Below are positions 15,846 through 27,535 of a DNA stretch of 36,028 nucleotides, piece after piece. Position numbers and translations under genes: made by a program. Every line of letters starts with the position of its first letter. Within the stretch, counting starts at the first letter, position 1. The notes below the pieces were generated by a model. The model had not been told where the DNA came from. It saw only the letters and a program-made list of their open reading frames with translations, and did no database searches. This DNA comes from Chitinophagales bacterium (GTDB taxonomy: Bacteria; Bacteroidota; Bacteroidia; Chitinophagales; UBA2359), in assembly GCA_020629205.1 (NCBI GenBank), contig JAHDDV010000002.1, forward strand, positions 19,026 to 55,053. The letters are read 5' to 3'.

Positions 15846-15978
15846 GTAAAAATGTAGAGGGGGACTGCGTGCGTCTGGGTTCGACTGGATCGAGAATTTT
15901 GTCAGAATTGAGTTGATTTTTTTTACGGCCTATTCTTTTTTTTGGAGCACAGCAGTTTTCGGCCGTGGCAACTGTTTA

Positions 15979-16112
15979 CTGGCTATCCATTGCAATGCTG
16001 GCACTCTCCAGCGGCTTCGCTGCTGCACTGCATCCGTCTCTCCTATCGTCGAGCCAGCTGCAGTACAGCGACTCAGGCGCTGTATAGCACCAGCATTTCC
16101 ATTTCTATCCAG
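15979..16112 (-). repeat. Long imperfect palindrome, element A, with conserved 20-nt apex
   Basis: Dyad 16045.5. CTGG/CCAG (15979-15982, 16109-16112), AATGCTGG/CCAGCATT (15994-16001, 16090-16097), CAGCG/CGCTG (16009-16013, 16078-16082) and GCTGCACTGCA/TGCAGTACAGC (16022-16032, 16059-16069) all share this centre. 39 of 57 arm positions pair. Apex GTCTCTCCTATCGTCGAGCC at 16036-16055. Confidence 0.9.
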
Positions 16113-16238
16113 GCTATTTGGCCACAGCATTGCTCGCGCTGGCAGAGCTTCTTCAGCCAGACTGAGTATAAACATGTACTTAGTCCAATTGGGAAGATTT
16201 TTTTTTGCTGGAGCGGGCCAAAGCCAGTGAAAATTAGC

Positions 16239-16372
16239 CCCGGGTGAAGCGGTATGAGGTGCTCATATAGCGTCAGTGAATGCCGCTGCGGGGTGGCTCG
16301 GAACGCAGTGGAGAGACGCACTGCAGTGTGCATGAACAGCTAGATGAGTGCCGAGTGAGAGCGGAACACGGG
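16239..16372 (+). repeat. Long imperfect palindrome, element B (opposite orientation to A)
   Basis: CCCG/CGGG (16239-16242, 16369-16372), CTCAT/ATGAG (16262-16266, 16344-16348), TAGC/GCTA (16268-16271, 16339-16342), ATGC/GCAT (16280-16283, 16330-16333), centres 16305-16306.5. Apex GGCTCG-gaacgcagt-GGAGAGAC (16295-16317). Confidence 0.75.
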
Positions 16373-16404
16373 ACGAAAGAAACGCGTACTAAAACTGTTG
16401 GGCT

Positions 16405-16461
16405 CCAAAAAAAGAATCTGTTCAAAAGTCTATCACCAAAAACAAAATCTGTTCATAAGTC
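16405..16461. repeat. Pair of 26-bp direct repeats, period 31
   Basis: CCAAAAAAAGAATCTGTTCAAAAGTC (16405-16430) and CCAAAAACAAAATCTGTTCATAAGTC (16436-16461), 23/26 identical. Confidence 0.8.
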
Positions 16462-27381: not shown

Positions 27382-27412
27382 GTCGCGTCATCCGCTAATA
27401 CTCACCTTGCAT

Positions 27413-27485
27413 CCTGCTGTTCAGCTTATGGTAGCTGGGGTCTCTCCTATCGTCGAGCCCCCATCTACCATGCTTCACAAGCAGG
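27413..27485 (-). repeat. Long imperfect palindrome, element C, with conserved 20-nt apex
   Basis: ATGGTAG/CTACCAT (27428-27434, 27465-27471) and TGGG/CCCA give dyad 27449.5, the exact centre of GTCTCTCCTATCGTCGAGCC (27440-27459). Outer CCTGCT/AGCAGG (27413-27418, 27480-27485) is offset by one nt. Confidence 0.88.
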
Positions 27486-27535
27486 CTGACGGCGGCTCGT
27501 TCCGCTCCTACCGCTCAGCCATTCCATCCACAAAT

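Follow-up and report, generated by a model that had tools for sequence, protein, structure and literature searches.

The closest described relative of the element considered here is Flavo-1 (RF01705; Weinberg et al. 2010, PMC2864571), an orphan family listed as one of the most abundant 'sRNA' families in bacteria, its function not given (PMC9029176). In F. psychrophilum, Flavo-1 matches lie sense or antisense to transcribed regions alike, and many fall outside them (PMC9723704). A second point of comparison is offered by the REPINs and the REP-associated tyrosine transposases (RAYTs) (PMC3116915, PMC6006769): dispersed intergenic hairpins, some of them in inverted pairs, for which strand-specific folding has been proposed.

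The window (the whole 36,028-nt stretch of Chitinophagales DNA that was analysed) carries a dispersed unit, element A, that has in common with Flavo-1 the UAGCC box, the order of the helices, the G·A internal loops, the strand and the occurrence in Bacteroidota. Judged from its sequence, element A very probably belongs to the Flavo-1 hairpin family as a long variant. It differs from the model in its long apical arm, an insertion of 76-80 nt at a point for which the model allows 5; in a score slightly under the cut-off, together with hundreds of copies; and in the conserved outer edges of the unit, which the Rfam model lacks. The orphan family was already known; new are the strand-exclusive G·A pattern, shown across copies, and the anatomy of the dispersed unit. 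The features of the locus are these:

15944-16140, minus strand: element A, a dispersed unit of about 200 bp, its edges set by the alignment of copies and by where near-identical copies diverge; the 5' edge lies some 24 nt ahead of UAGCC, and GCTCC (GGAGC on plus) forms the 3' end
15936-15943, no strand assigned: T-run on plus, which is the A-rich tail after GCTCC on minus (from sequence)
15972-16119, minus strand: Flavo-1 (RF01705) match spanning positions 1-76 of the model at 38.1 bits (converted from L001:1573-1720)
15982-16117, minus strand: hairpin core, 161.4 bits with a covariance model built on 30 copies
15983-15993, minus strand: outer G·A loops, 3' side, coinciding with internal loops of the Flavo-1 consensus
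16098-16108, minus strand: outer G·A loops, 5' side; partners 15983/16108, 15986-15988/16103-16105 (G·A/A·G/A·G), 15991/16100 and 15993/16098
16002-16003 with 16088-16089, minus strand: tandem U·G/G·U wobble (pair table of 122 copies)
16037-16054, minus strand: terminal helix, with G·A at 16037/16054 in 30 of 30 aligned copies and a variable apical loop
16211-16406, plus strand: element B, a diverged inverted partner, with a UAGCC box at 16235 and GCTCC at 16402-16406
15937-15959, plus strand: left outer arm of the A/B pair, 91% complementary to 16391-16413
16391-16413, plus strand: right outer arm of the A/B pair, complementary to 15937-15959

Elements A and B stand head to head and together form a long imperfect palindrome. 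Directly outside element B, positions 16405-16430 and 16436-16461 form a 26-nt direct repeat (88% identical).

At the Rfam gathering threshold no match is returned within the window. In a permissive E-value mode, five of five loci match Flavo-1 on the minus strand along the whole length of the model, with 30-39 bits; the window copy reaches 38.1 bits against a curated cut-off of 42, at full model length and with an E-value of 2e-5 in that search. Comparable copies in relatives reach 43-47 bits, several of them above 42, so that the scores form a continuous series. In a genome search, no match to RF01705 was found among the 150 of 1277 first-look candidates that were scored, too few to imply absence. 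The UAGCC box and the conserved purine internal loops on a single strand are present in element A by consensus alignment and pair table.

The mismatches of the hairpin were the point of departure. The initial annotation paired position i with 32091-i across 15979-16112; of the 22 mismatches it reported, 15 were T·C or C·T on the plus strand, none was G·A or A·G, and the remainder comprised five C·A/A·C, a T·G and a G·G. A recount gives identical figures (CT 8, TC 7, CA 4, AC 1, GG 1, TG 1, GA/AG 0). Seen from the minus strand, the same 22 oppositions become 15 G·A and five G·U, with a single C·A and a single C·C, so that 20 belong to the G·A or wobble class. Some positions near the apex do not count towards the conserved set: at 16044/16047 pairing is physically impossible, just 2 nt separating the two, and three apical G·A oppositions lie in the terminal loop, which is swapped in other copies and is therefore excluded. 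The conserved sites are 15983, 15986-15988, 15991 and 15993 (partners within 16098-16108), plus 16037/16054. The runs noted coincide with Flavo-1 internal loops (A·G; GAA/GGA, with three consecutive oppositions; GGA/GUA), and the three consecutive G·A that the annotation had singled out, 15986-15988 with 16103-16105, match the 3x3 loop of the Flavo-1 consensus. Nor does the bias come from a forced register of the arms, a doubt the annotation itself had raised, since the minimum-energy fold of the minus-strand RNA uses the same pairing. The one-sided mismatches are conserved G·A contacts within a Flavo-1 hairpin, and not the decay of a palindrome.

Chen et al. (2005) reportedly described a 3x3 loop in RNA made up of three sheared G·A pairs in a row. 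The minus-strand loop at 15986-15988/16103-16105 shares its 5'GGA/3'AAG sequence.

Support for these contacts extends to 122 distinct copies, assembled from stretches of the genome of origin and of one genome of the same genus. A·G or G·A stands at pairs 1, 4, 6, 9 and 11 in 96-100% of copies; pairs 0-8 were partly demanded by the patterns used to find copies, so that conservation there is inflated and forms the weaker part of the evidence, while positions 9, 11 and 23-27 lay outside the rule. Pair 5 is a G·A opposition in 64% of the 122, and pair 10 is mainly G·G, G·C or G·U. Over pairs 12-27, G·A outnumbers T·C by 135 to 1 and G·U outnumbers A·C by 184 to 3 in the same set; for pairs 23-27 the G·A to T·C count is 116 to 1. 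Copies are related to one another; when they are grouped at 80, 75 and 70% identity, the groups with an excess number 28:0, 10:0 and 5:0, in the same direction. Tabulated per oriented strand over all 122 copies, as the initial annotation had proposed, the polarity of mismatch classes is near absolute. The tandem C·A/A·C noted at 16002-16003 is U·G/G·U in 60-74% of the 122 copies and otherwise nearly always Watson-Crick. The helices covary: 19 of 42 pairs are altered on both sides, with 80 cells of two-sided change against 17.3 when shuffled and at most 16 with partners slid. Strand-exclusive retention of G·A, together with covarying helices, argues for a conserved hairpin and against a decaying palindrome.

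Folding energies single out the same strand. With RNA parameters the energy is -67.6 kcal/mol (z -6.84) for the minus strand, whose hairpin uses the noted register, against -46.1 (z -2.35) for plus; with DNA parameters the values are -34.6 for minus versus -26.4 for plus. Across copies, the sense strand is the more stable in 117 of 122 with RNA parameters and in 122 of 122 with DNA parameters. A long fold of 15930-16420 gives -213 kcal/mol on plus and -183 on minus; this advantage of the plus strand was discarded as evidence on the fold of A, as it arises from A pairing with the inverted B. The annotation had held the minus strand to be the functional folded strand. That it is the folded strand under selection is borne out by the retention of G·A and G·U and the near absence of T·C and A·C in every sequence cluster, and by a Flavo-1 covariance model lying on the same strand; the word 'functional' stands as selection on structure, and not as a known role. 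Folding from the minus strand and homology to Flavo-1 are, taken together, very likely. Folded single-stranded DNA fits the data as well as RNA does, and the chances that the folded form is single-stranded DNA and not RNA are about even.

The unit is dispersed widely in its own genome. A nucleotide search there returns 42 matches, and a covariance model from 30 aligned copies finds at least 146 (150 candidates scored); the true number is probably above 146. Near-identical copies (94-99.5% identity) occur at unrelated sites, their similarity stopping about at the unit edges: two in L142 are 99.5% identical over 199 bp, and the pairs L126/L129 and L156/L157 are 96% and 95% identical. Among the ORFs between the two copies in L142, no transposase was recognised by eye. 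The 5' edge is sharp in aligned copies, 24 nt ahead of UAGCC; at the other end GCTCC is nearly invariant, about 33 nt past the hairpin, and is followed by an A-rich tail that tapers outward. The two ends of the unit are alike as direct, not inverted, repeats (CCACGA...). In many copies of 15944-16140 the ends appear as direct repeats (CCACGASCGAAAG / GCCACGACCGAAT), which is unusual for elements moved by DDE transposases. A cut-and-paste miniature element (MITE) would be expected to carry target-site duplications at its edges; none was detectable, as the two sides of single units share k-mers (k = 5-10) no more often than shuffled pairings do. In a genome of the same genus, a single alignable orthologous locus is without the element, and is too diverged for a base-exact junction. 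No carriage of the unit was seen on viral contigs or plasmids.

Head-to-head pairs with a diverged partner are found in the window (A/B) and at L014, L028, L160 and L170, the partner in L028 matching Flavo-1 with 32.1 bits. Many other copies seem to stand alone, but contig ends accumulate 5' of the element: in G000 a contig end lies within 300 bp of the element on the 5' side in 33 of 100 copies and on the 3' side in 2 of 100, so that the short-read assembly hides the 5' surroundings. This suggests that further inverted partners may be hidden at 5' contig ends.

Among relatives the distribution is extremely patchy. When 299 genomes of the order are scanned for the motif, six of them show 1354, 387, 214, 125 (the genome of origin), 87 and 29 matches and almost none elsewhere (0-2 with a reversed-pattern control). 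The highest count belongs to G004 (6.3 Mb), whose 1354 exact Flavo-1 motif matches are strand-balanced and far above those of all other scanned genomes. A seventh copy-rich genome, G006, carries a variant without the UAGCC box. In a sample of the phylum, other matches are concentrated in one genus of the same class (at most 59 per genome) and in a small number of genera from a second family. Among named records, the A-type core is carried by one Saprospiraceae and one Chitinophagales MAG.

The sharply bounded unit, the near-identical copies at scattered sites, the very uneven distribution and the lack of a preferred orientation to genes point to a non-autonomous mobile unit, and mobility of the dispersed unit is in our judgement probable. 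The strand polarity suggests further that one folded strand is recognised. The explanation that best joins these observations runs as follows: a Flavo-1 hairpin folds from the minus strand; the one-class mismatches are the non-canonical purine oppositions built into the family, namely a single A·G, a triple G·A/A·G/A·G 3x3 loop, a second G·A/G·N/A·G 3x3 loop and an apical G·A; selection on the minus strand preserves these G·A loops; the unit of about 200 bp, which in some places faces a partner head to head, would be a mobile element of the non-autonomous kind; the folded strand, as single-stranded DNA or RNA, may be what a mobilising machinery binds; and the regular G·A loops may serve as a recognition signature, fixing which strand gets handled. 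As a whole, a Flavo-1 member folded from the minus strand, with loops kept by selection, in a mobile unit, is a probable account.

A different perspective supposes a true structured non-coding RNA or cis-element: the minus strand would be transcribed, the G·A loops would bind a protein or ligand, and copies would be kept for the RNA role. Much of the structural evidence is congenial to it, as Rfam types the family as sRNA, the minus strand has a strong RNA fold, GGA/AAG loops and G·U wobbles are typical of RNA, and conservation is strand-exclusive; the genomic setting is not. Forty-seven copies in the genome of origin (with approximate gene calls) have no preferred orientation relative to genes, 10 being co-sense, 11 co-antisense, 18 convergent and 8 divergent, and the placement of Flavo-1 in F. 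psychrophilum (PMC9723704) suits DNA at least as well. The 5' flank is unconserved past 24 nt, so that there is no shared promoter; A, not U, follows the 3' end; and copy number spans almost none to 1354 among relatives. We regard the structured RNA as unlikely.

REPINs moved by a RAYT would also account for dispersed hairpins and for some inverted pairs, and members of a Bacteroidota RAYT family occur in G001, G004 and G020. Here the hairpin is far longer than a REPIN, asymmetric and furnished with conserved G·A loops, and its presence does not track RAYT: the gene occurs in just three of seven copy-rich genomes, and was not found in the genome of origin (91% complete), G006, G017 or G041, several genomes being incomplete; conversely, 164 of 299 genomes of the order have it, and these are mostly copy-free. 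Seven RAYT genes were inspected, and a Flavo-1 match lies within 500 bp of only one. As far as RAYTs could be detected here, this alternative is largely refuted, and overall it is very unlikely. The RAYT family is a divergent one, found at L258, L262, L267, L268, L270, L271 and L274; four of its members were tested, and all score over the NCBIfam NF047646 cut-off. Several RAYT genes are flanked by short hairpins of their own.

An ordinary palindrome decaying, with a bias that comes from a pyrimidine-rich strand, has virtually no chance of being right, and the initial annotation's framing of a palindrome in decay falls with it, the hairpin having already carried these loops and never having been a perfect palindrome: the plus strand of 15979-16112 is indeed C/T-rich (81 of 134 bases), but arm composition predicts a T·C share of about 24% of mismatches against 68% observed, a simulated strand-symmetric neutral decay places 1.8-3.7 of 22 in this class and reached 15 in none of 20,000 runs under each of three transition/transversion settings, and the same sites are G·A in nearly all 122 copies while adjacent pairs covary.

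To return to the probably mobile Flavo-1 hairpin folded from the minus strand, the mismatch polarity links an oddity of raw sequence to an orphan family and supplies the boundaries of the unit. With copy number swinging between related genera from almost none to more than 1000, the question shifts from regulation by an sRNA to what moves or binds the folded strand. A reverse transcriptase (retron or group II intron derivative) was set aside as mobiliser, RVT_1 not being found in G001, G006 and G041, three of the seven copy-rich genomes (several genomes incomplete); nor was the Y1 transposase PF01797 found in the genome of origin. A broader generalisation, which we offer tentatively and rate somewhat below even, is that all Flavo-1 may be strand-specific mobile hairpins and not sRNA, processed as a single folded strand by a mobiliser that is neither RT nor RAYT, with G·A loops as a recognition code, and more than 1000 copies in some Bacteroidota genomes.

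Variants of the hairpin were seen in passing. In G006 copies such as L192, L199, L200 and L208 the 5' end seems to pair with a 3' end located past another hairpin of high variability; these second hairpins are in some cases terminator-like or bear a GTAGAGACG...CGTCTC repeat. The window itself holds, at 27387-27522 on the minus strand, a degenerate relative of the hairpin that scores 33.2 bits with the copy-built model and has the apical GGCTCGACGATAGGAGAGACC in common.
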